A DNA stretch of 40,718 nt. It comes from Deltaproteobacteria bacterium GWC2_42_11 (GTDB lineage Bacteria > Desulfobacterota > GWC2-55-46 > UBA9637 > GWC2-42-11). The stretch covers positions 2,508-43,225 of the forward strand of contig MGPS01000026.1 in the NCBI GenBank assembly GCA_001797495.1. Reading direction: 5' to 3'. The position numbers were made by a program, and so were the translations under genes. Under the pieces are notes generated by a model that did not search any database, had not been told where the DNA came from, and worked only from the letters and a program-made list of their open reading frames with translations. Below are positions 1,265 through 37,681 of this stretch, one piece after another; the first letter of the stretch is position 1; every line of letters begins with the position of its first letter.

Positions 1265-1340
1265 CAGGTGTTAGGTGTTAGGTGTCAGGTGTTAGTAAAA
1301 GCAGAAACCTGAAACCTAGAACCTGAAACCTAGAACCTAA
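1265..1340. repeat. Heptamer inverted array P1
   Basis: GTGTTAGGTGTTAGGTGTCAGGTGTTAG ... AACCTGAAACCTAGAACCTGAAACCTAGAACCTAA; 7-bp period, inverted arms. Confidence 0.85.
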
Positions 1341-1343
1341 TTT

Positions 1344-2864
1344 ATGCTTCAATACATAAGAAAAATTATACAGATTTCAGTCATAGCGGTAATCCTCTCC
1401 ATTACCATAATGAGTTACTATGGTTATCTTCTGTCTGCAAAGGGGCAGAAGGATTTTATGGATGTGGTGATGGAGGAAAAGGGGCATATTGCAGGCATTT
1501 TATACGGTGCCATAAACAAGGTTGCGGCTCCCTCACCTAATGCTGCCGATGAATTTGTATCTTACATTGACATGTTCAAGGGAGGTGTCTGGTCTTTAAC
1601 AGTATACGGTTTCAATATCACTGACCCTCTGGCAGCGGTCATAGCCACTATATCTGGGAAGGCATTTTATATACCTCTGGCAATTTCTATTATTATACCA
1701 ATGGTATTTATCTTTATATTTGGCAGGGCATTTTGCGGCTGGGTGTGTCCAATGAACCTGTTATTTGAACTGAATGAGAAGGCAAGGCAGAAACTTGAAA
1801 GTTTTAAGGTGCCAATTCTGGATATTACTATGGACAGAAGGTATAAATATGTTGTCCTTTTTTCCATGCTCGTCCTTTCTTTATTCGGGATTCAACTCCT
1901 TCCCTATATCCTGCCTTATGCCCTTGTTAGCAGGGAAATCTATTCTTATATATTCTATACTGCATTCAGTTTTGGAATGGTATTGATATTACTCTTACTG
2001 TTGTTTGAACTTCTGGTATCCAGAAGGGGCTGGTGCAGATATTTATGCCCGGGCGGTGCATTCTTTTCCCTGCTCGGTTTTATCCGTGCTGTAAACGTTG
2101 ATGCAGATTTAAGGAATTGTCCTGTTAATTGTCAGATATGCACAGAGGTGTGCCCAAGAGGGCTGGAACCTCATAAAAATATTATTGGAATGGAATGCGA
2201 CAACTGCGGCTTGTGTATATCAAAGTGTCCTGCGAGTGCAGTCAGATATAAGTTTGGAGTTAGGAGTTTGGAGTTAGGAGTTAAGGCAAAGGCTATTATT
2301 ATTTTATTTTTTTTACTCCTTACTCCTTACTCCTCACTCCTCACTGTCTCTTATGCTGCGCACGCAAAAATCATAAACCCTCATGCAGGGGCGCAAACAC
2401 ACTATCCGCAGAACCCTTCTGAGGAATACATCTCTGAAAGGGATGGATATATTGTAAACTTTTCCGTATTTCAGCATAAGCAGAGTGATTCAACTATAAG
2501 GGTAAAAGCAGTTGCCATAGTAAGAGACAAGGCAGCAGGCAAGCCGTATCTGGGACCGCTCAAGATGGTATTTTACAGAAAATCGCTTTTTAGTTTTAAA
2601 GAGGACATGGTATATGACTTTAAAAAGGATTTTGAAAACAGGTATCCATTTTATGCGAACCTCCCTTATGAGTCAGACTTTAAGGTGAAGGTCTCATTTA
2701 ATAGTAACGGCAAGGATATTGAGTTTGAGTTTCCTATTCGTGTTGGTGAACCAAAGTCCAATCTTATATTTCTTGGACTTATTTCAGTAATACTCATTGC
2801 CTCTGTTATTACAATTGCTCATCTTAAGAAAAAGCAGTCAAAGGTTATTTCTCCTGCTGGTTGA
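1344..2864 (+). CDS. NapH-like polytopic membrane 4Fe-4S protein with C-terminal FixG/CcoG-like soluble domain
   Basis: FCGWVCPMNLLFE, WCRYLCPGGAFF, CPVNCQICTEVCPRG and CDNCGLCISKCPA motifs; multiple TM segments. Confidence 0.75.
   Translation: MLQYIRKIIQISVIAVILSITIMSYYGYLLSAKGQKDFMDVVMEEKGHIAGILYGAINKVAAPSPNAADEFVSYIDMFKGGVWSLTVYGFNITDPLAAVIATISGKAFYIPLAISIIIPMVFIFIFGRAFCGWVCPMNLLFELNEKARQKLESFKVPILDITMDRRYKYVVLFSMLVLSLFGIQLLPYILPYALVSREIYSYIFYTAFSFGMVLILLLLLFELLVSRRGWCRYLCPGGAFFSLLGFIRAVNVDADLRNCPVNCQICTEVCPRGLEPHKNIIGMECDNCGLCISKCPASAVRYKFGVRSLELGVKAKAIIILFFLLLTPYSSLLTVSYAAHAKIINPHAGAQTHYPQNPSEEYISERDGYIVNFSVFQHKQSDSTIRVKAVAIVRDKAAGKPYLGPLKMVFYRKSLFSFKEDMVYDFKKDFENRYPFYANLPYESDFKVKVSFNSNGKDIEFEFPIRVGEPKSNLIFLGLISVILIASVITIAHLKKKQSKVISPAG
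2253..2345. repeat. Heptamer inverted array P2 inside the NapH-like CDS
   Basis: GTTTGGAGTTAGGAGTTTGGAGTTAGGAGTT ... TTTTACTCCTTACTCCTTACTCCTCACTCCTCACTG. Confidence 0.85.
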
Positions 2865-2890
2865 TTTTTTTGGGGGGGGGCGAACCCGCA

Positions 2891-3010
2891 AAGGGGAATG
2901 AAAATCTTGTTAATATTTGCGGCTGACTGTCCCGCCTGCAAACCTGTAGCCTCTAAAAGCCTCCCACCCAAACGGTTTGCCAGCGTGGCAGTCAGCCGCA
3001 GAAAGTATTT
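2891..3010. repeat. Hairpin repeat family H, copy H1
   Basis: Arms TGCGGCTGACTGTCCCGCCTGCAAACC / GGTTTGCCAGCGTGGCAGTCAGCCGCA around the conserved loop GCCTCTAAAAGCCTCCCACCCAAAC. Confidence 0.85.
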
Positions 3011-3030
3011 TAAGAGCAAGAGGGCAAATA

Positions 3031-4398
3031 TTGAAAACAGACCTGCTTAAAAACAGCACAATAAACTCTCTTTTTAAAAAGCGTGCATTTCAGTTTATCC
3101 TTCAATTACCGTTTATCCTGATTTTTACACTTATAGTATCAGCAGGGCTTTACGGCGCTTCTTTAAGCGGCAGTAATATTTCTACTGTTATTACATGGAC
3201 AATCTGGTGGGGCGGAATAATATTTACATTCCCTCTTATGGGCAGGGCATGGTGTTTTGTATGTCCATGGGCTGCTGTTTCTGACTGGGTCCAAAGGCTT
3301 GCATTCTGGAAAAAAAGGGATACAGGACTTGGACTTGATAAGAAATTCCCGGTTGCACTGCGAAATATGTACCCTGTGATTATTACATTTCTGCTTATCA
3401 CATGGGCTGAGTTTTACTTTAGTGCAGTATCAAGCCCTGTTGTTACAGCATACATCGCAATTGTTATCCTGATAGCAGCAATCTTGATATCCATTGTATT
3501 TGAAAGAAGGAGTTTTTGCAGATACCTCTGCCCTATCGGCGGCATGATAGGTGTTTATTCTAAATTCTCCATACTTGAACTTAGGGCAAGGGACAGGGCT
3601 ATTTGCAGGGAATGCCTTACAAAGGACTGCATAAACGGCAATAAAAAAGGATACGGATGTCCTGTATTTGAATATCCTGAGGCAATGGATACAAATGCCT
3701 ACTGCATCCTTTGCACAGAGTGTATAAAGACATGCCCAAAGGATAATATTGCATTGAACATAAGACCAATAACACATGAACTTTCAACATCCACTAACAG
3801 AAGGCTGGATGAGAGTTTTATGATACTTGTTGTCTTTGCAATCACCCTGTTTCACGGTCTTACAATGATACCACCATGGTTTCAGTGGACGGATTTAATC
3901 ATGCTTAATACCGGGATAGCGCCTTATGCACTTGTAACAATTGCTCTCTTTGCATTTGTGGGATTAACAATTTTAGTATATTTTATTTTTGTTTTGTTCG
4001 CTTCTCGCTCCTCACTCCTAACTCCTCACCCTTTCATTGCCTTTGCATATCCCTTAATACCATTGGCTCTCCTTTTTCATTTAAGCCACAATGTCTTTCA
4101 TCTCTTTGGAGAAGGTAAGAATCTTATAATAGTATCTTCTGACCCGTTTGGCTGGGGATGGGATATATTTGGAACAAGAGGATACAGACTGGAGACTATT
4201 TTATCATTTGATATGATATATTATATCCAGATTGCCTTTGCCATCGCAGGATTTGCCTATGCCCTTTATCTATGCCGCAGAACTTCTATGAACGATTTTG
4301 CAGGCAGGGGACTTATTCCATTAAGCATACTGATTGTATGCCTGACAATTATTTATATAGTGATGCTGAATCAGCCGATGGTTATGAGGATGGGGTGA
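3031..4398 (+). CDS. NapH/NosR-like 4Fe-4S membrane protein
   Basis: AWCFVCPWAAVSDW, FCRYLCPIGGMIG, CRECLTKDC and CILCTECIKTCPKDN motifs; polytopic. The upstream part of the supplied ORF (2977-3030) is repeat H1, so the TTG at 3031 is proposed as the start. Confidence 0.7.
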   Translation: MKTDLLKNSTINSLFKKRAFQFILQLPFILIFTLIVSAGLYGASLSGSNISTVITWTIWWGGIIFTFPLMGRAWCFVCPWAAVSDWVQRLAFWKKRDTGLGLDKKFPVALRNMYPVIITFLLITWAEFYFSAVSSPVVTAYIAIVILIAAILISIVFERRSFCRYLCPIGGMIGVYSKFSILELRARDRAICRECLTKDCINGNKKGYGCPVFEYPEAMDTNAYCILCTECIKTCPKDNIALNIRPITHELSTSTNRRLDESFMILVVFAITLFHGLTMIPPWFQWTDLIMLNTGIAPYALVTIALFAFVGLTILVYFIFVLFASRSSLLTPHPFIAFAYPLIPLALLFHLSHNVFHLFGEGKNLIIVSSDPFGWGWDIFGTRGYRLETILSFDMIYYIQIAFAIAGFAYALYLCRRTSMNDFAGRGLIPLSILIVCLTIIYIVMLNQPMVMRMG

Positions 4399-4520
4399 TT
4401 GACGCTGAAAAATGCCCATCTACTGTGTTGTCGCTGCGGCTTCTTCGCTCAACATACTACAAAGTATGCCTCGCTTGAAGCCTTGCTCCGCCTTGCATCT
4501 GGGCAATTTTTGAGCGTCAA
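4399..4520. repeat. Dispersed palindromic repeat family R, copy R2
   Basis: Arms TTGACGCTGAAAAATGCCC / GGGCAATTTTTGAGCGTCAA; inner hairpin CATACTACAAAGTATG. Confidence 0.85.
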
Positions 4521-4564
4521 CTTTAGATACAATGAAGTAATCCATAGTAACAGGGGAGAGTAAT

Positions 4565-5584: not shown

Positions 5585-5595
5585 AAACGGTTGAA

Positions 5596-5745
5596 ACACT
5601 CATGCCCCTTCGTGACACAAAGGAGCATGAAAATCTTTTTAGTACAGCGGCTGCCTACCTGCCTGCAAACCCGTTGCCTCTAAAAGCCTACTATCCAGAC
5701 GGTTTGCCAGCAGGGTAGGCAACCGTTGTGAGGTATTTTCGGAGC
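5596..5745. repeat. Hairpin repeat family H, copy H2
   Basis: Core GCAAACCCGTTGCCTCTAAAAGCCTACTATCCAGACGGTTTGCCAGC with arms CGGCTGCCTACCTG / CAGGGTAGGCAACCG; bounded by direct repeat AAACGGTTGAA (5585-5595, 5746-5756). Confidence 0.85.
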
Positions 5746-5758
5746 AAACGGTTGAACT

Positions 5759-6637
5759 ATGCTTTCTCACGAAATATTAGAAAACATCAAAAAACTTGAA
5801 CTCCGTACCAGAAGGCTTGTTGATTCTTTTATGGTTGGGGAATATTTTAGCGTTTTTAAAGGCAGCGGTATGGAGTTTTATGAGGTGCGGGAATATAACG
5901 AAGGTGATGATGTAAGAAGTATTGACTGGTATACAACAGCAAGGAAGGGAGTGCCGTTTGTAAGAACATATATAGAGGAAAGGGAACTCCCTGTAATATT
6001 TCTTGTTGATATGAGCGGTTCACAGGATTTTGGTTCGGGGCAGAGGGGTAAACAGGATTTATCCCTTGAGATAGTGGCATTTTTAGGGATGATAGCATTA
6101 AAGAGGAATAATCCTGTGGGCATTATAGGTTTTACAGATACAGTAGAGATATTCCACAGCATTAAAAAGGGCAGGAAAAATTTACTCCGAATTCTTGCAG
6201 CACTTTTATCTGTCAGGTGCAAGTCCAGAAAAACTGATATTTCAAAAGGCATAGATGCAATGAGTATGATTGCAAAAAAGAAAGGGCTTGTGTTTTTAAT
6301 ATCAGATTTTATTGCAGACGGGTTTGAACTCAAATTAAGGGCGCTTGCAAAAAAACATGATGTTGTGCCAATTGTTATTACAGACCCCATTGAAGCGGAT
6401 TTACCCATGAGAGGCTTTGTTGAACTTAAAGACAATGAGATGGGTGAGACTATGGTTATAGATGCAGGAAGCGAGGGTTTACGGGACTGGTTTCATATAA
6501 ATGCCTTTAAACAAAGGCAAGAGAGAAATAGGATATTTATGGATGCAGGGCTTGATTATATAGAGTTGAGGACAGATGTGCCTTTTGCAAGACCGATAAA
6601 AGATTTTTTTTACAGGAGACAACGTGCCAGAGGATAA
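5759..6637 (+). CDS. DUF58 domain protein
   Basis: EYNEGDDVRSIDWYTTARKGVPFVRTYIEERELPVIFLVDMSGS is diagnostic of DUF58; follows moxR. Confidence 0.93.
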   Translation: MLSHEILENIKKLELRTRRLVDSFMVGEYFSVFKGSGMEFYEVREYNEGDDVRSIDWYTTARKGVPFVRTYIEERELPVIFLVDMSGSQDFGSGQRGKQDLSLEIVAFLGMIALKRNNPVGIIGFTDTVEIFHSIKKGRKNLLRILAALLSVRCKSRKTDISKGIDAMSMIAKKKGLVFLISDFIADGFELKLRALAKKHDVVPIVITDPIEADLPMRGFVELKDNEMGETMVIDAGSEGLRDWFHINAFKQRQERNRIFMDAGLDYIELRTDVPFARPIKDFFYRRQRARG

Positions 6638-7580
6638 AGAGTTCGGAGTTAGGGATTCGGAGTTTAGAGTTTGGGTTTGGATGTTCTTATGTTTGTTGTT
6701 TTTACTCCTTACTCCTTACTCTTTACTCATCACTGCAGTTCATGCATCTGTCGTTGTAAATGCAGAGGTTGACAGGAAGGAGGTTTTGATTGGGGACAGG
6801 ATTATCTATACGCTCTATGTAATCGCTGATAAAGGCACTGAACTGGAACTGCCTCTTGACAGTCCTGATTTTACACCATTTGATTTTGTTGGTCAGAGGG
6901 GAATTGAAAAGATTAAAAATAAGGGCAGGATAACCTATAAGATAGATTATGTTCTTGCAGCATATGAGGTTGGGGAACTGGAGGCACCGCCGCAGACTGT
7001 CTATTTCAGGGATATAAAAGGCAAAGAAGGAGAGGTAGCAAGCGAAAGAATCAAAATAACAGTAAAGGGTGTTGTGCCAAAAAACAAGAGAGATAACGAG
7101 ATAAAACCTGTAAAAGAACCTGTAAGTATAGAGGTTAAAAAAAGCGGAGGGGTATTGTGGATACTGCTGTCCATCCTTTTCCTTATGGCAGTTATTATTA
7201 CTTATGCCTTTATATATTTGGTTAAGAATATAAAAAGGCACGAGGAGACAGCATTGCTGTCTTTGAGTCCAAAAGATGTTGCATTAAAAGAACTTAATAG
7301 AATAGAAAAACTTGGACTTATTGAAAAGGGTGATTTCAGGACATTTCACATAATGATTGAAGAATGCGTGAAAAAGTTTCTTTTAAATGGTATATCTATA
7401 TACCAGGCAGGCATGACAACCGTTGAACTTTTAAAATCAACAGAACCCGCAAGAGACATAAAAGAGATACTGCTTGACTGTGATATTGTTAAATTCGGAG
7501 GGTTCATACCTTCTGTTAATGAGGCATTACTTCTGTTAGAAAAGGCAAAGAGTGCAGTTGAGATATATCACAGGGCATGA
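6624..7580 (+). CDS. BatD-like exported/membrane protein
   Basis: Position between DUF58 and VWA genes; N-terminal hydrophobic segment, beta-rich region, TM segment LWILLSILFLMAVIITYAFIYL. Confidence 0.65.
   Translation: MPEDKEFGVRDSEFRVWVWMFLCLLFLLLTPYSLLITAVHASVVVNAEVDRKEVLIGDRIIYTLYVIADKGTELELPLDSPDFTPFDFVGQRGIEKIKNKGRITYKIDYVLAAYEVGELEAPPQTVYFRDIKGKEGEVASERIKITVKGVVPKNKRDNEIKPVKEPVSIEVKKSGGVLWILLSILFLMAVIITYAFIYLVKNIKRHEETALLSLSPKDVALKELNRIEKLGLIEKGDFRTFHIMIEECVKKFLLNGISIYQAGMTTVELLKSTEPARDIKEILLDCDIVKFGGFIPSVNEALLLLEKAKSAVEIYHRA
6638..6735. repeat. Heptamer inverted array P4 encoding the signal peptide of the BatD-like protein
   Basis: AGAGTTCGGAGTTAGGGATTCGGAGTTTAGAGTTTGGG ... TTTACTCCTTACTCCTTACTCTTTACTCATCACTG. 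Confidence 0.8.
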
Positions 7581-8524: not shown

Positions 8525-8527
8525 TCC

Positions 8528-9559: not shown

Positions 9560-9722
9560 GGTGAAAAAGGAAAAGACCCAGAGGGAGATTGAGGAGGAGA
9601 GGGCAGGGGAGATGGCAAAGGCAGTAGTGCACTATGCCAAATGCGGTGAATGCGGGGTAGTCCTTCCGGTTGACCAAATGTCTGACAACGGCAGTTACAT
9701 TGTATGTCCGAAGTGTTTGTAA
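9537..9722 (+). CDS. Small zinc-ribbon-like protein
   Basis: CGECGVVLPVDQMSDNGSYIVCPKC; AGGAGG upstream of ATG; overlaps the end of batB-like. Confidence 0.65.
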   Translation: MEHMEENEVKKEKTQREIEEERAGEMAKAVVHYAKCGECGVVLPVDQMSDNGSYIVCPKCL

Positions 9723-10510
9723 AGGATAGGCAAAGGGCAGAGGGCAGAGGGCAGAGGGTAAAAACTCTATGCCCTATGTTCTATGCGCTATGCTCTGCAT
9801 TTTTTCTCCTCGGCATGGGGATTGGAGATGCGTCTATTGAGAAGGTCAGAGATGGAAACAGGCGCTATCAGGAGAAGAAATATGAGGATGCAATAAATAA
9901 ATATAAAGAGGCGCTAAAGATAAATCCATCGTCAACCATTGCCGCTTTTAACATGGGGGTTGCAAAATACAGTCAGGGTTATTATGCCTCAGCAATAAAT
10001 GATTTTAATACTGTCCTTGCCAGAAAGGATGCAGCCCTTGAGGCGAACACATATTATAATCTCGGCAATGCCTTTTTTAAGGCAAACATGGTAAAACCTG
10101 CTGTCCATTCATATAAAGAGGCAGTGCGGCTTAATCCTTACGACATGGACGCAAGGTATAATCTTGAGGTTGCACTTGAACGTTTAAAGACCGTTGAAAA
10201 AGAAAAATCAGGTTTTTATGCAGGGGATATACCTAACCCCTTGATAAACAAGGGAGGGCTTGAAACAGAGGCTTTGAGCAGCGAGGAGATAGAGGCGAAG
10301 ATAGATGAGGGTGCGATGGAGTTCCAAATGGAAGAGGCAGGCAAGGTCGGTGCAGGCAATGCAAAGAGGGGCTGGCGCGGTTCTTTAAAGGATATGTCAA
10401 AGAAAGAGGCAGAAGATATTCTCCGCACAATTAGGGATAAGGAATTAAATACATTCAAGGAAAAGGTGAGGTTTGAGACAGTCGGTGTCAGTGCAGCACA
10501 GGATTGGTGA
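9704..10510 (+). CDS. TPR-repeat protein (BatC-like)
   Basis: TPR repeats NRRYQEKKYEDAINKYKEALKINPSSTIAAFNMGVAKY and NTYYNLGNAFFKANMVKPAVHSYKEAVRLNPYDMDARYNL. Confidence 0.8.
   Translation: MSEVFVKDRQRAEGRGQRVKTLCPMFYALCSAFFLLGMGIGDASIEKVRDGNRRYQEKKYEDAINKYKEALKINPSSTIAAFNMGVAKYSQGYYASAINDFNTVLARKDAALEANTYYNLGNAFFKANMVKPAVHSYKEAVRLNPYDMDARYNLEVALERLKTVEKEKSGFYAGDIPNPLINKGGLETEALSSEEIEAKIDEGAMEFQMEEAGKVGAGNAKRGWRGSLKDMSKKEAEDILRTIRDKELNTFKEKVRFETVGVSAAQDW
9727..9798. repeat. Heptamer inverted array P5 encoding the signal sequence of the TPR protein
   Basis: AGGGCAGAGGGCAGAGGGCAGAGGGT ... CTATGCCCTATGTTCTATGCGCTATGCTCTGC. Confidence 0.75.
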
Positions 10511-10512
10511 AA

Positions 10513-10597: not shown

Positions 10598-10646
10598 CGG
10601 TATAAAGAGATGGAAAGGAACCTCATAATAAAAAAAGGAAGATATA

Positions 10647-11804: not shown

Positions 11805-11920
11805 TCTGTTCACAAATGCTATATGCGGCTGACTACCCTGCTGACAAACCGTCTAGGCGGGGGCTTTTAGAGGCAACGGGTTTGCAGGCAGGGGAGTCAG
11901 CCGCAGAATAAGAGGTATAT
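11805..11920. repeat. Hairpin repeat family H, copy H4 (core inverted relative to H1-H3)
   Basis: TGCGGCTGACTACCCTGCTGACAAACCGTCTAGGCGGGGGCTTTTAGAGGCAACGGGTTTGCAGGCAGGGGAGTCAGCCGCA. Confidence 0.85.
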
Positions 11921-11924: not shown

Positions 11925-13310
11925 ATGAAACCAACCTGCCTCTTCATAGCCCCCGGCATAAACTGCCTTACTCATCCGGAGAGATTTACCACAACCTATG
12001 ATTTTCCGAGAGGTCTTTTAAGTGTGGCAACATTTCTGAAGGCAAACGGCATAAAGACTGAAGTCCTCCCACTTGATTATTTTATAAAACCATCTGCTGA
12101 TAAAAAAACTATAGAGAGCCGGATAAGTTCTGTGGTGAGCGATGCAATATCTGATTTAAAGCCTGCATTTATTGGCATAGGTGTTCCATATACCATGCTC
12201 TACCCTTCTGCACTAAAGATTGCAGAGGTCTGCAAAAAGTCAAAACCGGATGCCATTGTTATTTTCGGTGGTCCCCATGTGTCATACAGGGACAAAAAAT
12301 GTTTTGAGGATTCAGGGTATGTTGATGTTGTTGTGAGAGGCGAGGGTGAATGGACAGTCCTTGATGTAATCAATAATATCTTGCAAAAAAAGGGATTTGA
12401 CGGGGTTACAGGAATTACTTATAAAGACAGTTCAGGGGCTGTAATAAGAAATTCTCAAAGAACGCCCGGAGATATAATGGAAATCCCTTTACCTGACTAC
12501 AGCCTTCTGCCAGAGGGTTTTGTTAAAAATATGGCGGTCTCAATTGTTGGCAGCAGGGGGTGCGCATACAAATGCACATACTGCAATGAAAGTTTGTTCT
12601 GGGGGCAGAAAGTCAGGTCTTTCCCTGTAAGTATGGTGTTTGAGGAGATAAAGACACTTGCAGAAAAATACGGGAACTATGCTGTTGGACTTGAAGACAG
12701 TATGTTTAATATGAGGTCAAAATATTTTTTTGAACTGTGCAGTATGCTGGCAGAAATAAAACTCCATCCTGCTTTTTATATTTTATCAAGGGTTGATTCT
12801 GTTACAGAAGATGGATTTAAGGCAATGAAGAGGGCAGGGATAAATAATTTGATACTCGGCATTGAGAGCGCCTCTCCAAGGGTTCTAAAAGCGATGAATA
12901 AAAAAATCATACCTGAACAGGCAGATGGTGCATGCAAAAAGGCAAGAGATAATGGTCTTATTGTTGACACATTCTGGATAATAGGGCATCCGGGTGATAG
13001 CCCTGATGAGGCAACTATTACCATTGATGCAATAAGCAGATTCTATCGTGATGGTCTGCATCAAAATTCAGAAATCGCAATGTTCGTGCCTTATCCCGGG
13101 ACAAAGATATTTGAACACCCAAAGGAATTTGGCCTGGAGATACTTACATATGACTGGGAAAAATGGGCAAGGTTCAATTCAGAACCAGTGTACCAATTGA
13201 AAGAGTTTCCAGCACAGGATATTATGCTATACTGGCTTGCCGCAAACAGGATTGCTGATGAATGGAAGAGGTATAATGCTTCTAAAAAGATAGTCAATGA
13301 AGGAGGTTAA
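11925..13310 (+). CDS. B12-binding domain radical SAM protein (BchE-like)
   Basis: GSRGCAYKCTYCNESLFW radical SAM CxxxCxxC; N-terminal cobalamin-binding-like domain ending PDAIVIFGGPHVSY. Confidence 0.9.
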   Translation: MKPTCLFIAPGINCLTHPERFTTTYDFPRGLLSVATFLKANGIKTEVLPLDYFIKPSADKKTIESRISSVVSDAISDLKPAFIGIGVPYTMLYPSALKIAEVCKKSKPDAIVIFGGPHVSYRDKKCFEDSGYVDVVVRGEGEWTVLDVINNILQKKGFDGVTGITYKDSSGAVIRNSQRTPGDIMEIPLPDYSLLPEGFVKNMAVSIVGSRGCAYKCTYCNESLFWGQKVRSFPVSMVFEEIKTLAEKYGNYAVGLEDSMFNMRSKYFFELCSMLAEIKLHPAFYILSRVDSVTEDGFKAMKRAGINNLILGIESASPRVLKAMNKKIIPEQADGACKKARDNGLIVDTFWIIGHPGDSPDEATITIDAISRFYRDGLHQNSEIAMFVPYPGTKIFEHPKEFGLEILTYDWEKWARFNSEPVYQLKEFPAQDIMLYWLAANRIADEWKRYNASKKIVNEGG

Positions 13311-13311
13311 A

Positions 13312-15033
13312 ATGAGAAATAGAAAGCGGGGCAAGGGGCAGAGGTTGTTAATTCTGCTTTTGTTTTTTACACTGGCAACTGCCAACTGGCAACTGCCAAC
13401 TGCAGCACATGCCTATACGCATGATACATCCCTCATAAAATGGCAGGAGTATTCCGCTCAGGCATTTGATAATGCGGTTAAAGAGAAAAAACCTGCATTC
13501 ATGATTATAACAGCAGTATGGTGCTACTGGTGTCATGTGTATGAGGAGAAGACACTTGAGACAAAAGAGGTGGCTGATTATATAAACAATAATTTTATCC
13601 CAATATTTGTTGATTATGACAGGCGCAAGGACATTGCATCAAAGTATCCTGCGGGCGGACTTCCAACAACAGTGGTTCTTATGCCTGATGGAGAGGAATT
13701 GGTTGCTGTGCCCGGCTATATAGAAAAGGGGCAACTCCTTTTAAACCTTGAGAAGACCCTTGCCTTTATACAAAAGGAATACAAACCAAAGGGAGTTGAA
13801 GAGGCAAAGGATATTTACAGGGAAAGGAGAAACATTGCCAAACTGGACCTGCAAAAGTATTCAGACCATTTTGAGAGGGTTGTAGTTGACAGATACGACA
13901 CCCTGTTTGGAGGTTTCGGTTTGAGGGAAAAGTATATATACGGCAGGGCAGTTGACCATCTCCTTGATATATATGAGTCTAATAAAGACAAGAGGTATCT
14001 GGACATGGCTCTAAAGACCCTTGACAATATGGCAGGAAGGACGCAGAAGACAGTCAAGGCAAAGAGACCATCTTTTAATGAATTAAAAAAACTCAGAGAG
14101 GATGTAAAACAGCCTGACTGGATTAACAAGATTGCCCGACTGCAAACCGATGATAAGATAGTCGGGCTGTTTGAGAAGGTTGAGGGAGGATTTTTCAGGT
14201 ATGCAACCCAGAGGGACTGGAGTGTCCCGCACTATGAAAAGATGCTTGAAGACCAGGCTGATATTATAAAGGCATACCTCCATGCGTTTAAAATAACAAA
14301 GGATAATTTTTACAAAGATGTTGCAGTCAAATCTCTTAAATATGTAACGAGCAGCATGTATAATGAAAAAGATTCCAGATTCTACGGCAGCCAGGACGCT
14401 GATGAGGTCTATTACCATTTTACACTTGAAGAAAGGAAAAAGGTTGCTCCGCCCAGAACTGACACGACATCATATACGCATACAAATGCAAATATGGTGA
14501 TTACGCTCTTATATGCAGGGGATGTTTTAAAAGAGGATAAATATAAGAAGGCAGCGGTGAGGACACTGGACTTTTTTATAAATAACATGATGAGCGAAAA
14601 TGGCGTGTTGAGTTTCTATGACCCTGCAAAAAACAAGGGTTTTCTTGACGGGCAGTTGGAAGACAATGCATGGCTGGCATTGGCGCTTATTGAAGGGTAT
14701 AAGACCACAAAGGAAAAGAGGTTTATTGAAAAGGCAGATGCCCTGATTGCATTCTCTTTAAAGAGCCTTTACAACGAAAAGGAAGGCGGATTTATTGAGA
14801 GGAGGTCTACGGCACGGGAATTCTACAGGGAAAAGGAACTTGTAAGCCTAAAGAAACCTTATGGGCATAACAGCGTTATGAACTATGCCCTCATAAACCT
14901 CTATGAATTGACAAAGAACAAGGAATATCTTGAAAAGGCAAGGGAGGGGTTCGGGCTCTTTTATGAGGATATGAATATGGAGTTCCAGTCCGTCCATTTC
15001 CAAAGGGTGGCGAGGTATCTTTTAAAGCAGTAA
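13312..15033 (+). CDS. DUF255/YyaL-type thioredoxin-fold exported protein
   Basis: WCYWCHVYEEKTLETKEVADYINNNFIPIFVDYDRR; alpha/alpha-barrel-like C-terminal region. Confidence 0.85.
   Translation: MRNRKRGKGQRLLILLLFFTLATANWQLPTAAHAYTHDTSLIKWQEYSAQAFDNAVKEKKPAFMIITAVWCYWCHVYEEKTLETKEVADYINNNFIPIFVDYDRRKDIASKYPAGGLPTTVVLMPDGEELVAVPGYIEKGQLLLNLEKTLAFIQKEYKPKGVEEAKDIYRERRNIAKLDLQKYSDHFERVVVDRYDTLFGGFGLREKYIYGRAVDHLLDIYESNKDKRYLDMALKTLDNMAGRTQKTVKAKRPSFNELKKLREDVKQPDWINKIARLQTDDKIVGLFEKVEGGFFRYATQRDWSVPHYEKMLEDQADIIKAYLHAFKITKDNFYKDVAVKSLKYVTSSMYNEKDSRFYGSQDADEVYYHFTLEERKKVAPPRTDTTSYTHTNANMVITLLYAGDVLKEDKYKKAAVRTLDFFINNMMSENGVLSFYDPAKNKGFLDGQLEDNAWLALALIEGYKTTKEKRFIEKADALIAFSLKSLYNEKEGGFIERRSTAREFYREKELVSLKKPYGHNSVMNYALINLYELTKNKEYLEKAREGFGLFYEDMNMEFQSVHFQRVARYLLKQ
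13371..13403. repeat. Heptamer array P6 encoding the end of a signal peptide
   Basis: ACTGGCAACTGCCAACTGGCAACTGCCAACTG; encodes LATANWQLPTA just before AHA. Confidence 0.75.
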
Positions 15034-15170: not shown

Positions 15171-16832
15171 TTACTCCCACTCTATTGTGCTTGGGGGCTT
15201 GCTGCTTATATCATATACAACCCTGTTTATCCCGCGCACCTCGTTTATTACCCTTGATGAAATCCTTGCCATTAAATCATAGGGGAGTCTTACCCAGTCT
15301 GCTGTCATGCCATCAACACTCTCAACAGCCCTTACTGCAAGGACATTTTCATAAGTCCTTTCATCACCCATGACGCCTACTGTTTTTATCGGCAGAAGGA
15401 CTGCAAATGCCTGCCAGATTTTTGTGTAAAGTCCTGCATTCTTTATCTCTTCAAGAACAATTGCATCAGCCTTTCTTAAGATATTGCACCTTTCCTCTGT
15501 GACCTCTCCTAAAATCCTTATTGCAAGTCCCGGTCCAGGGAACGGATGGCGGTTTATGACTTCCTCTGGCATGCCTAGTTCCCTGCCCAAAATCCTAACC
15601 TCATCCTTGAATAATTCCCGAAGCGGCTCAACCAATTTTAGTTTCATATTTTTCAATAAGCCGCCGACATTGTGATGGCTCTTTATTGTTGCTGATGGGC
15701 CTTTAAATGAAACGCTCTCAATTACATCTGGATACAATGTTCCCTGTGCAAGAAAACTTACATCATGCCCCTGATCCCCACCCGTCCTTCGGACGGGTAC
15801 CCGCCTTGACCCCTGACCCTTTTTTAACTTCACTGCCTCATCCTCGAATACCCTTATGAATTCATTGCCGATTGTCTTTCTCTTTTTTTCAGGGTCTTCA
15901 ATGCCTTTTAATTTTTTCAAAAATCTTTTACTGGCGTCAATGCAGATTAAATTTATGTGAAAGTGCCTTCTGAAAACTGTCTCAACCTTTTTTGCCTCGT
16001 CTTTGCGCAAAAGTCCATTATCAACAAATATGCAGGTTAATTGATTGCCAATTGCCTTATGAATCAAAACCGCTGTTACTGCTGAATCAACGCCGCCGCT
16101 CAATCCGCACACAACACCTTTGTCGCCAACCTTTTCTCTTATATCATGTATTGATGTCTCTATAAAAGACTTCATTGTCCAGACAGGCTTGCATTTGCAG
16201 ATATTGAATAAAAAGTTTTTTATTATCTGGCTGCCCTTTGGTGTATGGACAACCTCGGGGTGGAACTGGACGCCATATACCCTTTTCCTTTCATTTTTCA
16301 TTGCACAGATTGGCGAGTTTTTGCTGTGCGCAATGGATTTAAAGCCCTTTGGCATCTTTTTAACCCTGTCACCGTGGCTCATCCAGACTATTAATCTCCC
16401 CTTACCCCCCCTTACTGTAATCCCCCCCAACCCCCCTTTAATAAAGGGGGGAGAAGGGGGGATTATGTTCTTAAAAATATCCTTATCATCATCTATAACA
16501 AGTTCCGCGCTTCCGTATTCCCTGTGTGCGGATTTTTCTACCTTTCCACCTAATAGATGCGCGGTTAACTGCATCCCATAGCATATCCCCAAAACAGGTA
16601 TCCCCAATTCAAAAACCTCTTTTGAAATTACAGGTGCGTCCTTGTCATAGACGCTTGAAGGCCCGCCTGAAAGGATTATACCTTTTGGATTAAACCCCCT
16701 TATCCTGTCCAGACCGATATTAAAGGGATGTATCTCGCAGTAGACCTTATGCTCCCTTACCCGTCTTGCAATGAGTTGCGTATATTGAGAGCCAAAATCA
16801 AGTATAAGTACCTTTTGCTGATGTATGTCCAT
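15171..16832 (-). CDS. guaA: GMP synthase (glutamine-hydrolysing), with two unusual in-frame insertions
   Basis: [78 protein letters not shown]. Confidence 0.98.
15765..15822. repeat. Palindromic element inside guaA (ATP-pyrophosphatase domain)
   Basis: TGCCCCTGATCCCCACCCGTCCTTCGGACGGGTACCCGCCTTGACCCCTGACCC; encodes [19 protein letters not shown]. Confidence 0.8.
16393..16465. repeat. Palindromic element inside guaA (glutaminase domain)
   Basis: ATCCCCCCCAACCCCCCTTTAATAAAGGGGGGAGAAGGGGGGAT; encodes [16 protein letters not shown]. Confidence 0.85.
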
Positions 16833-16947: not shown

Positions 16948-19434
16948 TTAGAATATCACCTGTTGGGGTTTATACCCTCTTACAGTTATTGAATAGAACT
17001 TAATCCCGTCAACCTCTTTGTAAAGATATCGCTTTATTATCTCCAGACCATAAAAGCCTGTCTCTTTTGCAATGGTTATAAACCTCTCCTCCCTTAATGC
17101 ACCTGAAATACACTCACCCCATAGTTTTTTATCTGACTGCATCTCACAAGGCACATCCTTGTCAGAAACAATGTCAGATATGTAGAACCTGCCGCTGTCC
17201 TTTAATACCCTGTAAATCTCTTTAAATACCCTTTTCTTATCAGGTGAAAGATTTATAACACAGTTAGATGTAATAATATCAGCGGTATTTTCAGGAACAG
17301 GCATGTCCTCAAGGAATCCCTTCTTAAATTCAACCACATCATATCCAAGGTTTTCAGCAACAGTCTTTGAGATAGTCTTTGCCTTATCAAGCATCTCATC
17401 TGTCATATCAATACCTATAACCCTGCCGCTTTTACCTACAAACTTTGCTGCAATAAAACAGTCTATACCTCCGCCTGAACCAAGGTCAAGCAGCACCTCA
17501 CCTTCTTTTACATCTGCGAGGGATACAGGGATTCCACAGCCGTATGAGATTTCTATGGCATCCTGCGGGGTATGGGAGATGTCATCGGCATTATACAATA
17601 TCGGACAGCAGAGTTCCTGTTTCGGTTTTTTAGCAGCATCACCATAAAAATCTTTGACAGATTCGTGGACAGAATTTTGACCCCTGCTTAAAGCCTTCGG
17701 GGGCACCCCGCTTAGCGGGGGCAAGGTTTTGAATTTTGACCCCTGCTTACTGCTTGCAGGGGCACCCCGCTTAGCGGGGGCATGGTTTTGAGTTTCTTCC
17801 ACAGGTGAACAGGAGGCAAATGGAGAGGAACTTCTGCCTTCTGGCTTTTCCACATCCACAGCCAGCACACAACTGCAGTGAAAACCACCCACTTCCACAG
17901 AGGCATCCCTTACAGATACATCAGAAGAGGCACAGGAAGGAAGAGTGCCTGACATGGCATTGAATATCTGAGGCGGCTGATATCTACCATTTTCAGAGAT
18001 ATTTCCGTTAATACCTTTTCTGGCAGATTCCCATAATATATCTGTAAATAATGCCTTATATGCCTCACAATACGGATCTGTTGCCATTGTGCATCCTGCA
18101 CCTGTCCTTAGTTCAAGGTCATAGTATCCCTGACAGAAGCACCCGCCGCCGCATATAAACTTGAGATAACAGTTATTGCACTCAACCCTCTTCTGGACAG
18201 TCAATGCCCTTATTTCCTGCATTACCCTTGAATTCAGCCATATATCTTTAATCCTTGCCCCCTGCCCCTGCTTAGTGGGGTGCCCGCGCTCAGAGGGCAC
18301 CCGCCTTGCCACTGTTTTTATTGAGCCGCAGGCGAATCTCCTGTCACCTGTTAATGCAGCACACGGATAAACATTTCCATCAGCACCTATTGAAAACATG
18401 CTGTAGCAGCAGTTGCACAAATCATTCTTCCTGCCCCTCTTTACCTTTACCCTGACCTTTAATGACTCTTCGTTATCAACGATTATTTTCATAGATTTTG
18501 TTACTTCTCTGAGTTCCCTCATTATATCCCGAAGTTTTTCAGACGAGACAAGGATGTCATCCATGTTATCCTTTGTCCTTCCCCTTGCATGGAGCCAGAG
18601 GATATGGTGGTTGAGTATGCCCATAGAATCCATGAATATGGTTGTGTCAACAATAGCATCCTGATTCAGTTTTGTAACTGTAGTGGTAATAATGGGATTT
18701 ATGCCTATGTCTAAAAACCCTTTGATACCGCGCAAAGCCAGTTCAAAATTACCTCTGCCCCTTATCCTGTCATTTATCTCCGCATTTGGTCCTTCAAGGC
18801 TTATCTGGAACCTTACATCCCTGTCTGCAAAACTTTCAAGTTTTGAAAAATCAAGGATTGTGCCGTTAGTAAGTATAATAGTCTCAGCCTTTGATGAGAC
18901 GTAATCCAGTATATCGTATATATCTTTTCTTAAAAACGGCTCCCCGCCTGTCAGATAGACCCTCTGACACCCCAGTTCAACAGCCTCATCTATAATCCCA
19001 TTTATATCATTGAGAGAAAGTGCATCCTCTGCAGCATGGGGTCCTGCACTTACAAGGCAGTGCCTGCAGGATAGATTGCAGTTCTGGTTTGTATATATCC
19101 ATATCTCTTCCAGTCTGCCAGGCGCTATGGCATCTGCCCTTCCTGTATAGGCAGGTTTTAAACAGGGTTTTTCATAGATCATGGATTTAGCCATCCCGTC
19201 TCTTATAAAATCCATACACCCATGAAAGACATCACTATAGCCTATGTTCCATTCAGATGCGATTTTATTACACACCTCTCCCATGGTGGTTCTGCCATCC
19301 AGATGCCTTAAGATATAGGCACCTGCAGGGTTTGTGCTGACCCAGTTTGGTGATTCAGGGTCTATCACAAGGCAGAGCCCTCCATTTTCTTCAATGTATA
19401 GTTTCTCGGGGGTATAAAAAATTTTGTTTTCCAC
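16948..19434 (-). CDS. PqqD-like + radical SAM + SPASM + ArsM-like methyltransferase fusion
   Basis: N-terminal PqqD-like region; CNLSCRHCLVSAG; SPASM-type cysteines CNNCYLKFICGGGC; C-terminal VLLDLGSGGGIDCF and SNCVINLSPDK, as in arsenite methyltransferases. Confidence 0.85.
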   Translation of the reverse strand: MENKIFYTPEKLYIEENGGLCLVIDPESPNWVSTNPAGAYILRHLDGRTTMGEVCNKIASEWNIGYSDVFHGCMDFIRDGMAKSMIYEKPCLKPAYTGRADAIAPGRLEEIWIYTNQNCNLSCRHCLVSAGPHAAEDALSLNDINGIIDEAVELGCQRVYLTGGEPFLRKDIYDILDYVSSKAETIILTNGTILDFSKLESFADRDVRFQISLEGPNAEINDRIRGRGNFELALRGIKGFLDIGINPIITTTVTKLNQDAIVDTTIFMDSMGILNHHILWLHARGRTKDNMDDILVSSEKLRDIMRELREVTKSMKIIVDNEESLKVRVKVKRGRKNDLCNCCYSMFSIGADGNVYPCAALTGDRRFACGSIKTVARRVPSERGHPTKQGQGARIKDIWLNSRVMQEIRALTVQKRVECNNCYLKFICGGGCFCQGYYDLELRTGAGCTMATDPYCEAYKALFTDILWESARKGINGNISENGRYQPPQIFNAMSGTLPSCASSDVSVRDASVEVGGFHCSCVLAVDVEKPEGRSSSPFASCSPVEETQNHAPAKRGAPASSKQGSKFKTLPPLSGVPPKALSRGQNSVHESVKDFYGDAAKKPKQELCCPILYNADDISHTPQDAIEISYGCGIPVSLADVKEGEVLLDLGSGGGIDCFIAAKFVGKSGRVIGIDMTDEMLDKAKTISKTVAENLGYDVVEFKKGFLEDMPVPENTADIITSNCVINLSPDKKRVFKEIYRVLKDSGRFYISDIVSDKDVPCEMQSDKKLWGECISGALREERFITIAKETGFYGLEIIKRYLYKEVDGIKFYSITVRGYKPQQVIF
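17674..17790. repeat. Two tandem ~59-bp palindromic units in the interdomain linker
   Basis: ATTTTGACCCCTGCTTA...GGGGGCACCCCGCTTAGCGGGGGCAAGGTTTTG repeated at 59-bp spacing. Confidence 0.85.
18255..18315. repeat. Palindromic insert in the radical SAM/SPASM region
   Basis: TTGCCCCCTGCCCCTGCTTAGTGGGGTGCCCGCGCTCAGAGGGCACCCGCCTTGCC; encodes ARRVPSERGHPTKQGQGA. Confidence 0.75.
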
Positions 19435-22765: not shown

Positions 22766-22858
22766 TTTAGAGTTAAAGAGTTAAGGAGTTTAAAGAGTTA
22801 TAGAGTTGAACATTTTTGCTTTTAAACTCCCTAACTCCAAACTCCTAACTCACAACTG
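22766..22858. repeat. Heptamer inverted array P7 between glnB and glnA
   Basis: TAGAGTTAAAGAGTTAAGGAGTTTAAAGAGTTATAGAGTT ... AAACTCCCTAACTCCAAACTCCTAACTCACAACTG. Confidence 0.8.
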
Positions 22859-25114: not shown

Positions 25115-25250
25115 CTTTGGCTTACAAAGGGGTATGAAATTTTGTTGGTTTTGCTGCTGCCTGCCCCGCTGGCAAACCGTTTAGGTGGGAGGTTTTTAGA
25201 GGCTGCGGGTTTGCAGGCGGGGTAGGCAGCAGTAGCAAAAAGATATTTTT
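25115..25250. repeat. Hairpin repeat family H, copy H5 (core inverted relative to flank)
   Basis: ACAAAGGGGTATGAAATTTTGTT flank as in H1/H2; TGCTGCTGCCTGCCCCGCTGGCAAACCGTTTAGGTGGGAGGTTTTTAGAGGCTGCGGGTTTGCAGGCGGGGTAGGCAGCA. Confidence 0.85.
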
Positions 25251-29093: not shown

Positions 29094-29195
29094 AATCCCG
29101 GTCTTATTCCAGATTTGTTTGCTGCAAGGGGAGCGAAAAACTTAAAACGAAAAATGAAAAACAAAGGTACATTAGTTTTACACTTTTCGCTTTAT

Positions 29196-29456: not shown

Positions 29457-29458
29457 GA

Positions 29459-30898: not shown

Positions 30899-30899
30899 A

Positions 30900-32411: not shown

Positions 32412-32459
32412 TAAACCTCCGTATTAAACAGTAATCAGTAAAAGATCATTCTGTTATAA

Positions 32460-32583
32460 GTTTACGCTCAAAAATTGCCCAGATGCAAGGCGGAGCAAGG
32501 CTTCAAGCGAGGCATACTTTTTAGTATGTTGAGCGAAAAAGCCGCAGCGACAACGCAGTAGATAGGCATTTTTCAGCGTAAAC
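32460..32583. repeat. Dispersed palindromic repeat family R, copy R3 (between nuoL and nuoM)
   Basis: GTTTACGCTCAAAAATTGCCCAGATGCAAGGCGGAGCAAGGCTTCAAGCGAGGCATACTTTTTAGTATG ... GGCATTTTTCAGCGTAAAC. Confidence 0.9.
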
Positions 32584-32589
32584 TCCCTT

Positions 32590-34437: not shown

Positions 34438-34446
34438 TTTAAACTC

Positions 34447-34749
34447 CTAGTGTTTCATCTCATCAAGTTCTTCAATATAAACTGTCTTACGCTGCCTATA
34501 GACTGCAACAAGTATCGCAAGCCCTACAGCGACCTCTGCTGCAGCAACAGTTATTGTGAATACAACAAATATCCTCCCTGTCATTGACTGAAGGAAATGC
34601 GAAAATGCAGCAAGGCTTATATTTATTGAGTTAAACATTAACTCAAGCGACATCAATACGATTATTATGTTCCTGCGAAGCAGCACACCTGCAATGCCGA
34701 TGGAGAACAGTATCAAACTTAATATTAGATAATGGGATAAAGTAATCAT
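34447..34749 (-). CDS. nuoK: NADH-quinone oxidoreductase subunit K
   Basis: MITLSHYLILSLILFSIGIAGVLLRRNIIIVLMSLELMFNSINI; residues before this in the supplied ORF are repeat-derived. Confidence 0.93.
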   Translation of the reverse strand: MITLSHYLILSLILFSIGIAGVLLRRNIIIVLMSLELMFNSINISLAAFSHFLQSMTGRIFVVFTITVAAAEVAVGLAILVAVYRQRKTVYIEELDEMKH

Positions 34750-34756
34750 AAAAATA

Positions 34757-34811
34757 CAGTTGGCAGTTGGCAATCGGCAGTTGTGCACACTGCAAACTGG
34801 CAACTGCAAAC
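34757..34811. repeat. Heptamer inverted array P8 upstream of nuoK
   Basis: CAGTTGGCAGTTGGCAATCGGCAGTTGTGCACACTGCAAACTGGCAACTG. Confidence 0.8.
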
Positions 34812-34823
34812 TTTTTTAGTGTT

Positions 34824-35327: not shown

Positions 35328-35356
35328 AGTTGTTACAAGTGCCAGTTTCTTTTATG

Positions 35357-35480
35357 GTTCATGCTCAAAAATTGCCCAGATGCAAGGCGGAGCAAGGCTT
35401 CAAGCGAGGCATACTTTTGAGTATGTTGAGCGCAGAAGCCGAAGCGACAACACAGCAGATGGGCAATTTTCAGCGTGAAC
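35357..35480. repeat. Dispersed palindromic repeat family R, copy R4 (between nuoI and nuoJ)
   Basis: GTTCATGCTCAAAAATTGCCCAGATGCAAGGCGGAGCAAGG ... GGGCAATTTTCAGCGTGAAC. Confidence 0.9.
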
Positions 35481-35481
35481 A

Positions 35482-36048
35482 CTACCACCACCTCTTCTTT
35501 TTTGTCAAATCAGGTCTAACCCTGATTCCTTCCTTGTTTCTTTCGAGTTTTGCCTTTACCACATAACCACCTTCAAACTCAGCAGGTATCTCTATCGGCG
35601 CCAGGAGCCTATGTTTATCTGCCTTGGCGCAGTCCAGAGAAAAACATGCAAGTTCATATTCCCTTCCCATCCTTACTGCTGTTGTAGGACAGGCATCTTC
35701 ACATAATCCGCAGAACATGCATCTCACAAGATTTATTTCATATACCTGTGCAACCCTGTCAGTAATACCTATGCCTGTATTATCTTCCATCGGTATAACG
35801 GTTATGCATTTTGTAGGACATGCCTTACTACAAAGTTCACATGCAACGCAAAGTTCTCTCCCCTGTGAATCCCTGTTTAGAGTATGAAGCCCCCTGAATC
35901 TCTGGTATGGAATCCATTTCTCTTCGTCAGGATACCTGATTGTAATGGTCTTTGACACATTGTATTTAAAGGTCAGAGAAAGACCTTTGATGAGGTCAAT
36001 GAAGAAGACCTTTTTCAAAATGTCAACTATCCCTGAATTTGCACTCAT
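35482..36048 (-). CDS. nuoI: NADH-quinone oxidoreductase subunit I
   Basis: CVACELCSKACPTKCI and CMFCGLCEDACPTTAV 4Fe-4S motifs; start moved to MSANSGIVDILKK. Confidence 0.93.
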   Translation of the reverse strand: MSANSGIVDILKKVFFIDLIKGLSLTFKYNVSKTITIRYPDEEKWIPYQRFRGLHTLNRDSQGRELCVACELCSKACPTKCITVIPMEDNTGIGITDRVAQVYEINLVRCMFCGLCEDACPTTAVRMGREYELACFSLDCAKADKHRLLAPIEIPAEFEGGYVVKAKLERNKEGIRVRPDLTKKKRWW

Positions 36049-37037
36049 ATTACAAACAACCCTGTAATTAAGATATTTACAAGCGAAAGCGGCAGCAATA
36101 TCTTCCATCCTATTGTCATCAACTGGTCATAACGGTATCTCGGGAATGTGAACCTCACCCACATGAAAAAATATATAAACGCTGAAACCTTTATGAGGAA
36201 CCAGACAATAGGGGGAAGTATCGCATGCCCGCTCCACCCGCCAAAAAACAGGATAACTGCCAGTACAGACATCAATACCATTGCAACATATTCAGCGAGC
36301 ATAAAGAATGAAAAACGCATTGAACTGTATTCTACATGATAGCCTGCGGCTAACGTGCCTTCATCCTCTGAAAGGTCAAATGGAATCCTGTTTATCTCTG
36401 CCAGACCTGCAATGATGAATATTATGAACCCCAGCGGCTGATAGCATATATTCCATGTGGATACCTTCTGTGAATTGACTATATCAACAAGGCTTAAAGA
36501 GTTTGAAACCATCACAACGCCGATTGCTGCAAAACTTAAGGCAAGTTCATAACTTATCATCTGGGCAGATGACCGCATACTGCCGAGGAGTGCATATTTG
36601 CTGTTAGATGCCCAGCCTCCGAATATAAGCCCGTACACACCTATGCCTGCAACCGCAAGTATATACAATATCCCGACATTCATATCTGATATATAAAGTG
36701 TTATCTCTCTGCCTAAAACTGTAATCTTGTCACCAACAGGCACAGTAGCAAATGTCAGGAATATCGGCACAAGCGAGATAATCGGCGCCAGTTTGAACAG
36801 CCATTTGTCTGCTTTGTCAGGGATAATGTCTTCCTTGAACATAAGTTTTATCATGTCAGCAATAGGCTGCAAAATACCGTGCCAGCCCACCCTGAAAGGT
36901 CCAAGCCGTAGTTGTATATGTCCTGCAACCTTTCTCTCAATCCATGTCAAAGGGATTGGCAGGGCAAAGAGTATGCTGCTCACAAGGATAACCTTGACTG
37001 TTATCAGGGCGACTTCTATGAGTGTGTTTATGTCCAT
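36045..37037 (-). CDS. nuoH: NADH-quinone oxidoreductase subunit H
   Basis: WIERKVAGHIQLRLGPFRVGWHGILQPIADMIKLMFKED. Confidence 0.96.
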   Translation of the reverse strand: MDINTLIEVALITVKVILVSSILFALPIPLTWIERKVAGHIQLRLGPFRVGWHGILQPIADMIKLMFKEDIIPDKADKWLFKLAPIISLVPIFLTFATVPVGDKITVLGREITLYISDMNVGILYILAVAGIGVYGLIFGGWASNSKYALLGSMRSSAQMISYELALSFAAIGVVMVSNSLSLVDIVNSQKVSTWNICYQPLGFIIFIIAGLAEINRIPFDLSEDEGTLAAGYHVEYSSMRFSFFMLAEYVAMVLMSVLAVILFFGGWSGHAILPPIVWFLIKVSAFIYFFMWVRFTFPRYRYDQLMTIGWKILLPLSLVNILITGLFVI

Positions 37038-37042
37038 AGTTC

Positions 37043-37116
37043 CGTTATACGTGAGCGTTATACGTGATGCGTGAAAAATCTCCTTGCGTATAACGCATCA
37101 CGTACACGCATCACGG
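37043..37116. repeat. Short-period inverted array P9
   Basis: CGTTATACGTGAGCGTTATACGTGATGCGTG ... GCGTATAACGCATCACGTACACGCATCACGG. Confidence 0.8.
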
Positions 37117-37122
37117 TATTTT

Positions 37123-37593
37123 CTACCTTCTCCTCCCCCACATATAATTCACCATTTCCATATACCTTGTATTCATGCCGCGGACTATTGCATGGATATT
37201 AAAGACTATCTGCCTCATCAGCCTGTAAACCATTCTGGGCTGTTTATCCACCATGTTTTCAAAGTCTGCCTTTGCTATTGTATATGCCTCTGTATCAGAA
37301 ATTGCTATTATCGTCGCAGAATGGGGCCTCCCATCCAGAAACGACATCTCGCCGAATATATCCCCGTCCTTCATTAATGTCAGGGTAAGGGATTCCCCTT
37401 CCGGGGTTGTCTTACAGACCTTTACCTCGCCTTTTTTAATTACATACAGGAATGGACCTTCCTCATTCTCCCTGAATATCACATCTCCAACCTTGAAGTT
37501 TTTTTTACCTACTATAGGCGATAGTGCCTTCAATTCATCTTCAGTCAAATCACCAAAAAATGTCATATCTCTCAAAGTCTTTGGGTCAACCAT
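37123..37593 (-). CDS. Cyclic nucleotide-binding (Crp-like sensor) domain protein
   Basis: GDVIFRENEEGPFLYVIKKGEVKVCKTTPEGESLTLTLMKDGDIFGEMSFLDGRPHSATIIA; no HTH after the cNMP domain. Confidence 0.92.
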   Translation of the reverse strand: MVDPKTLRDMTFFGDLTEDELKALSPIVGKKNFKVGDVIFRENEEGPFLYVIKKGEVKVCKTTPEGESLTLTLMKDGDIFGEMSFLDGRPHSATIIAISDTEAYTIAKADFENMVDKQPRMVYRLMRQIVFNIHAIVRGMNTRYMEMVNYMWGRRR

Positions 37594-37613
37594 AATGCAC
37601 CTCCATGTTAATA

Positions 37614-37681
37614 CCGTTATACGTGTGCGTTACGCGTTATACGAAAACCAATTTTGCACGCATCACGCTCACGCATCACGG
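37614..37681. repeat. Short-period inverted array P10, same words and orientation as P9
   Basis: CCGTTATACGTGTGCGTTACGCGTTATACG ... GCACGCATCACGCTCACGCATCACGG. Confidence 0.8.

Follow-up and report, generated by a model that had tools for sequence, protein, structure and literature searches.

Tandem arrays of seven-base words were first described from bacteria decades ago, and why the unit should be seven bases and the array about four units long is unexplained. In Xanthomonas (GGGAATC) and Nostoc (GGGGA(C/T)T), such arrays have a period of 7, consist mostly of four units and are dispersed over the genome; Xanthomonas carries 70-75 convergent pairs per genome, found in the same intergenic places in two related species with a sequence that varies between them (Rehm et al. 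2015, PMC4692102). Each genome there has one G-rich word family, for which a G-quadruplex basis was proposed, and 7-11% of the arrays are intragenic (PMC4692102). The Geobacter metallireducens elements, located within and between genes, consist of heptanucleotides in tandem (four or five units) or of octanucleotide sites paired across the two strands; they form a few fixed families (GGGACCG, MTYCTGA and GTTGCTYN), read as regulator-binding sites or RNAs, with no word turnover reported (PMC2700814). The cyanobacterial STRR and Beggiatoa TAACTGA repeats are direct arrays of few words, mainly intergenic, with one inverted case in the Beggiatoa genome (PMC4679880). Here, we analysed a 40,718-nt stretch of contig MGPS01000026.1 of Deltaproteobacteria bacterium GWC2_42_11 (hereafter the window), in which an initial annotation had described nine hairpins made of repeated heptad words and a half-array at about 4004. 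All of these loci are present in the sequence, and on balance we favour the view that they belong to a genome-wide class of ~31-bp period-7 arrays, the words of which spread by length-neutral misaligned copying with no need for a dedicated enzyme.

The source genome (G000) is a fragmented draft of 1.75 Mb in 73 contigs, of which 1.31 Mb was scanned for imperfect tandem repeats scoring at least 12, with periods 4 to 22 compared. Period 7 yielded 150 arrays and period 14 (2 x 7) 100 arrays, against 21 for period 8, 19 for 16, 22 for 21 and 1-16 for each of the others, and sequence simulated with a second-order Markov model contained no period-7 array; seven-nucleotide tandem units, as in heptameric simple sequence repeats (SSRs), are thus far above chance and above other periods in this genome. 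As the initial annotation had it, the word varies between loci: the 150 arrays have 89 distinct consensus words, and neither a lack of 7-bp excess nor one fixed word set, which it had named as counter-evidence, is what the genome holds. A typical array repeats its seven-base word four to five times, giving about five cores of 3-5 nt at 7-nt spacing. Array length has a sharp mode at 31 bp (4 x 7 + 3), few arrays exceed 37 bp, and coding and non-coding arrays have medians of 32 and 31 bp, respectively. This mode of about four units is shared with the Xanthomonas and Nostoc arrays, from which the present class differs in its many words per genome, in the lack of a four-GG-tract motif in most arrays, in the location of about half of the arrays within genes and in the replacement of the word at orthologous sites. 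Four or five tandem heptamers or opposite-strand pairs, in and between genes, are likewise a point in common with the Geobacter elements. Arrays of 8 bp show a lesser excess (the 21 include 6 inverted pairs), for example as AACTCCTN-type octamers, and look like the heptad class plus one extra base.

Arrays often face each other. Among period-7 pairs at most 120 nt apart in G000, 30 are inverted and 3 direct, and of 96 adjacent pairs at most 90 nt apart in three genomes of the family, 69 run from a purine to a pyrimidine array (R-to-Y) and 3 the other way; this convergence again resembles Xanthomonas. The polarity holds in coding (14 R-to-Y, 0 Y-to-R) and in non-coding sequence (18 and 1). Facing arms are complementary (ungapped score at least 10) in 62.5% of pairs, compared to 9.5% for randomly re-paired arms, and the loop between them is mostly 0-15 nt. 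On the pyrimidine strand, arrays tend to finish in phase on an (A/C/T)CT core, and the boundary profile contains no conserved motif or terminal inverted repeats beyond T-rich flanks. The initial annotation had taken STRR repeats as the nearest analogue. These, like the Beggiatoa repeats, are dispersed heptanucleotide tandem arrays, patchy across phyla (PMC4679880), but the many words and mostly inverted pairs seen here are unlike them, and the Xanthomonas GGGAATC arrays, mostly of four units and often convergent, are closer (PMC4692102).

We then compared orthologous sites, using two genomes of the same family that belong to other genera (at the first locus, protein identity is 73 and 72%). 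In 37 of 51 orthologous intervals, an array of period 7 or 8 occupies the same place, compared to 3.1% of random intervals, and at 24 of these 37 sites the word identity is below 75% (median 0.60, versus 0.46 at mismatched sites). Sister genera therefore keep the array, in essential genes too, and change the word, which bears out the proposal that the class is defined by architecture. Short palindromic repeats such as the Rickettsia palindromic elements and REP/BIME, some of which lie in frame inside genes, have conserved sequences; here, it is the architecture and not the sequence that is conserved. In KdtA, the same codons carry ACTCATC in G000, GCTCTCC in G001, CCTCCCG in G005 and CCTCCTG in G003, at equal length and with the CTC core in register, while G004 and G009 have AGAAGCA arrays at this site instead. 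In PolX, three class-level outgroups are array-free at the site and of equal length, which suggests that the array was written over codons already present; a 4-residue deletion in the sister family is also seen at the site, and a shorter ancestor with later re-expansion may be the alternative.

The word is replaced in place, as had been proposed, with all units changing together at constant length. This was examined in 13 equal-length array pairs anchored on both sides, nearly all of them coding, by asking, for the seven positions of the unit in turn, whether none, some or all of the units had changed. We observed 62 unchanged, 13 mixed and 16 all-changed positions, where 42, 48 and 1 were expected, and the maximum of all-changed positions over 500 permutations was 4. 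A net 7-nt insertion or deletion would shift the frame in these coding arrays. Two-by-two variant patterns within arrays favour neighbours (AABB 79, ABBA 24, ABAB 16), and together with the concerted change this implies that units are copied from adjacent units. Words are probably also copied between arms: the two arms have both been replaced, with pairing retained, at L038:19832 according to the score and, on visual inspection, at L060:6927, L066:4014, L066:8554, L064:8840 and L031:8239. The symmetry that the initial annotation held to be preserved is widespread rather than universal: it is missing from the facing pairs that lack complementarity and from one orthologue of the hairpin at 2253. 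Words are apparently copied between neighbouring arrays as well, since arrays that lie on the same contig at most 10 kb apart have a word in common in 13.3% of cases in G000 (5.0% permuted) and in 14.4% in G001 (6.9% permuted). In flank-GC-stratified permutations, 0 of 1000 reached the observed value in either genome, and the excess is gone beyond 12 kb. Local base composition was rejected as the source of this sharing on the basis of that stratification and of correlations of only -0.04 and 0.07 between word GC and flank GC. In summary, the copying that had been placed on the hairpin does leave a signal, but mostly within single arrays and between neighbouring ones.

With genes called by a home-made gene caller, 42 of the 150 arrays fall into intergenic gaps between co-directional genes, where 9 would be expected; another 30 are located in the first 40 codons, against an expected 18, and 67 are internal to functionally unrelated genes, against an expected 111. 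Internal arrays occur in PolX, KdtA, CobQ, PdxA and TsaD, mostly at variable loops, and TsaD (L063:10557-11621) has a convergent pair with two different words. Protein-level selection for a seven-residue repeat was rejected on two grounds: a period of 7 nt equals 2.33 codons, and the arrays also occur, in excess, outside genes.

Array positions are stable, their size is constant, words turn over in concert, arms match and neighbours share words. We infer that slippage with realignment, together with quasipalindrome template switching, during ordinary replication or repair could produce this pattern. The nascent strand would slip by one unit, copy a few bases from the adjacent unit, from the arm opposite or from another array close by, and then realign, so that the variant would be copied without a net insertion or deletion; the hairpin itself may serve as a copying substrate. 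Within genes, outcomes that shift the frame or contain a stop would be discarded by purifying selection, and the arrays that survive would be those in signal peptides, transmembrane segments and surface loops; such a process would require no dedicated enzyme. Template switching is known to homogenise the arms of inverted repeats, in coding genes too, and to generate hairpins (PMC8604942, PMC8794818, PMC7202029). Arm homogenisation, multi-base changes and action in coding genes would be common to both (PMC7202029, PMC8604942, PMC8794818), but quasipalindrome template switching acts on ordinary single inverted repeats and leaves the 7-nt period, the 31-bp size and the sharing over kilobases unaccounted for. 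Misaligned copying in general does not account for the 7-nt unit and the ~31-bp size; an earlier proposal, as quoted in PMC4692102, equates the unit with a polymerase contact length.

Several further points weigh against misaligned copying. About 38% of facing pairs are non-complementary, and simple template switching gives no reason to expect so strict an R-to-Y polarity. Free slippage should broaden array lengths, rather than leave a sharp 31-bp mode, and should alter the length of coding arrays. The excess of arm matching and the both-arm replacements were seen in genomes of different genera, which show no single copying event, and most of the permutation nulls given above ignore shared ancestry among sites. 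Finally, the arrays at L030:11393 and L069:5690 are identical between genera though their flanks are merely 75-82% identical, which suggests transfer or constraint.

One rival, ordinary replication slippage with drift, would make the arrays heptamer microsatellites that lengthen, shorten and mutate and whose convergent pairs arose by chance or by simple inverted duplication. In many bacteria, heptamers are indeed the most frequent kind of long SSR (PMC4679880, PMC4692102), and in the one informative close pair, two Nostoc sequences ~92% identical (L189:3672-3753 and L223), turnover is visible at close range: the ACTCCTA array at one shared site measures 82 bp against 47 bp, and the words differ at another site close by. 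However, coding words change in all units at constant length where a one-unit slip would shift the frame, and arm matching and polarity are far above the null; we consider slippage and drift an unlikely explanation. Quite unlikely, too, is the possibility of dispersed palindromic mobile elements of a MITE- or REP/RAYT-like kind, whose differing words would be separate insertions at hotspots. Words do recur genome-wide and across genera (31 shared, versus 7.3 for letter-shuffled words), certain orthologous sites are empty or shorter, and TsaD has a net insertion of ~19 residues relative to Thermotoga TsaD. Yet the boundaries have only their T-rich flanks in common, PolX shows no length gain over its class-level outgroups, and orthologous arrays share a core in register while differing consistently across all of their units, which independent insertions would not lead one to expect. 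Moreover, a family search of G000 gave no match to Y1_Tnp (RAYT, PF01797) or RVT_1 (reverse transcriptase, PF00078), which goes against the dedicated enzyme or REP-associated transposase that the initial annotation had in mind; the lack of an RVT_1 match also speaks against diversity-generating or retron-type reverse transcription.

Selection for a function, whether as G-quadruplex or hairpin regulators or as protein-binding sites spaced by 7 nt, would suit the co-directional intergenic enrichment, the narrow size, the conserved positions and a unit number that equals the G-quadruplex minimum (Rehm et al., PMC4692102). We nevertheless judge it improbable, with the word freely replaced and so many arrays inside functionally unrelated genes. 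G-quadruplexes were rejected as a general cause, since four GG/CC tracts, the loosest definition, occur in merely 78 of 211 arrays and four GGG/CCC tracts in 20. A dedicated writer (a nuclease, polymerase or reverse transcriptase) that rewrites a patch of ~31 nt with 7-nt words would explain the sharp size mode, above which hardly any arrays are found, and the length-neutral overwriting. It would also fit the restriction of the trait to a lineage, as indicated here by counts of 0 arrays in ~80 kb for class-level relatives and 15 in 55 kb for the sister family, and the patchy recurrence across phyla of the one word tested. This survey concerned a single word family, ACTCCTN: among 247 genomes of the phylum, 25 have it, and it is also present in Cyanobacteria, Bacteroidota, Clostridia, Chloroflexota, Campylobacterota, Proteobacteria and planctomycetes, where the adjoining sequence holds arrays of other words too. 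The same architecture in so many phyla suggests a generic cause, however, and no candidate gene was found, the RAYT and reverse transcriptase families being absent from G000, which leaves a dedicated writer highly doubtful. In a broader form, some cellular activity would measure out a patch of ~31 nt and fill it with repeats of a 7-nt word copied from the adjacent unit, from the arm that faces it or from another array close by. This is a speculation that we hold to be unlikely; if true, genomes would keep patches, in essential genes included, that change their word at constant length.

Single-word cases of the heptamer excess, the four-unit size and the convergent pairs are on record from Xanthomonas, Nostoc and Geobacter. 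In the openly accessible literature, the many words per genome, the overwriting of coding regions and the length-neutral word turnover at orthologous sites look undescribed. Since period, size, position and facing symmetry outlast changes of the word, the copying mechanism can be separated from any sequence-specific function, which makes the old heptamer question testable through word change. Under misaligned copying, bacterial proteins such as DNA polymerase X, Kdo transferase and TsaD would carry peptide segments set at the DNA level, and these can mislead annotation and phylogeny.

The arrays of the window, located with Tandem Repeats Finder (TRF) and by sequence inspection, are collected in Table 1.

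Table 1. Heptad arrays and hairpins of the window, with the open reading frames (ORFs) that contain them.
Position	Strand	Feature	First arm or array	Second arm	Context
1266-1339		heptad hairpin	purine, AGGTGTT x4, 1266-1295	pyrimidine, alternating AACCTGA/AACCTAG, 1304-1339	intergenic
2251-2345		coding hairpin	GGAGTT(T/A), 2251-2283	ACTCCT(T/C), 2313-2345	ORF 1344-2864 (Fer4_5 membrane ferredoxin)
3998-4029	+	single pyrimidine array	xCTCCTC		transmembrane region of ORF 3031-4398
6639-6728		hairpin	degenerate GGAGTT, 6639-6680	ACTCCTT, 6702-6728	signal-peptide region of ORF 6624-7580 (weak BatD match)
9729-9796		hairpin	GGGCAGA, 9729-9758	CTATGCC, 9767-9796	signal-peptide region of TPR ORF 9704-10510
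13328-13344	+	short purine half-array	GGGGCAAGGGGCAGAGG (GGGGCAA word)		faces 13371-13403, word non-complementary
13371-13403	+	pyrimidine array	ACTGGCA/ACTGCCA x4.4		signal-peptide core of ORF 13297-15033 (thioredoxin-like)
22768-22857		hairpin, mixed 7/8-bp steps	GAGTTAA, 22768-22807	AACTCCT, 22824-22857	intergenic
34757-34812		hairpin	CAGTTGG, 34757-34783	CAACTGC, 34784-34812	start of NuoK-like ORF 34447-34809
37043-37115		hairpin	CGTTATA/CGTGATG, 37043-37072	ACGCATC, 37093-37115	intergenic, between two minus-strand genes
37614-37680		hairpin	CGTTATACGTGTGCGTTACGCGTTATACG, 37614-37643	CACGCAT, 37657-37680	intergenic

The loci themselves stand as annotated, but some of their details had to be revised: the one at 13371 is a single array, the facing word of which does not pair with it, the left arm at 6639-6680 is degenerate, and not every step is of 7 bp, with steps of 7 and 8 bp mixed at 22766 and of 6 and 7 bp at 37043 and 37614. 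The arms in the window have a common core (e.g., GGAGT/ACTCC), often with the other two or three bases different. Three loci (6638, 9727 and 13371) code for signal-peptide regions and two (2253 and 4004) for membrane segments; purine arms give charged residues (KFGVRS) and pyrimidine arms hydrophobic ones (LLLTPYSSLLT), and the hairpin at 2251-2345 accordingly translates to a charged stretch followed by a hydrophobic one. Its orthologues carry GGAGTTC/ACTCCTC (L082) or, with mismatched arms, GGGTTCAA/ACTATTC (L083, G002). Orthologues of the first hairpin carry different arrays, and the word in the orthologue of the hairpin at 6639-6728 is TTACCTC. At equal length, G002 has CTCACGA/CTCACGG at the identical codons of the array at 3998-4029, and ACTTCTC x4.4 in the orthologue of the array at 13371-13403.

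Other repeats were also seen in the window. A dispersed palindrome of ~100 bp has at least three or four copies (2911-3007, 5641-5757, 11824-11905 and 25137-25249), with the layout GCGGCTGMCT..CTGCAAACC, a loop with TCTAAAAGCCT, and GGTTTGC..AGTCAGCCGC; unlike the heptad hairpins, its sequence is conserved between copies. Longer inverted repeats of ~100-170 bp at 405-575, 4410-4515, 32459-32584 and 35368-35470 (e.g., AAAATTGCCCAGATGC ... GCAGATGGGCAATTTT), some copies of which contain CTTCTTCGCTCAACATAC, may represent one or two further families. An inverted repeat with a 10-bp period, TAATCCCCCCCAACCCCCCTTT / AAGGGGGGAGAAGGGGGGATTA, lies at 16418-16465, and a 59-bp direct repeat at 17672-17795 (2.1 copies), within the minus-strand ORF 16948-19434, includes the hairpin CCCCGCTTAGCGGGG.

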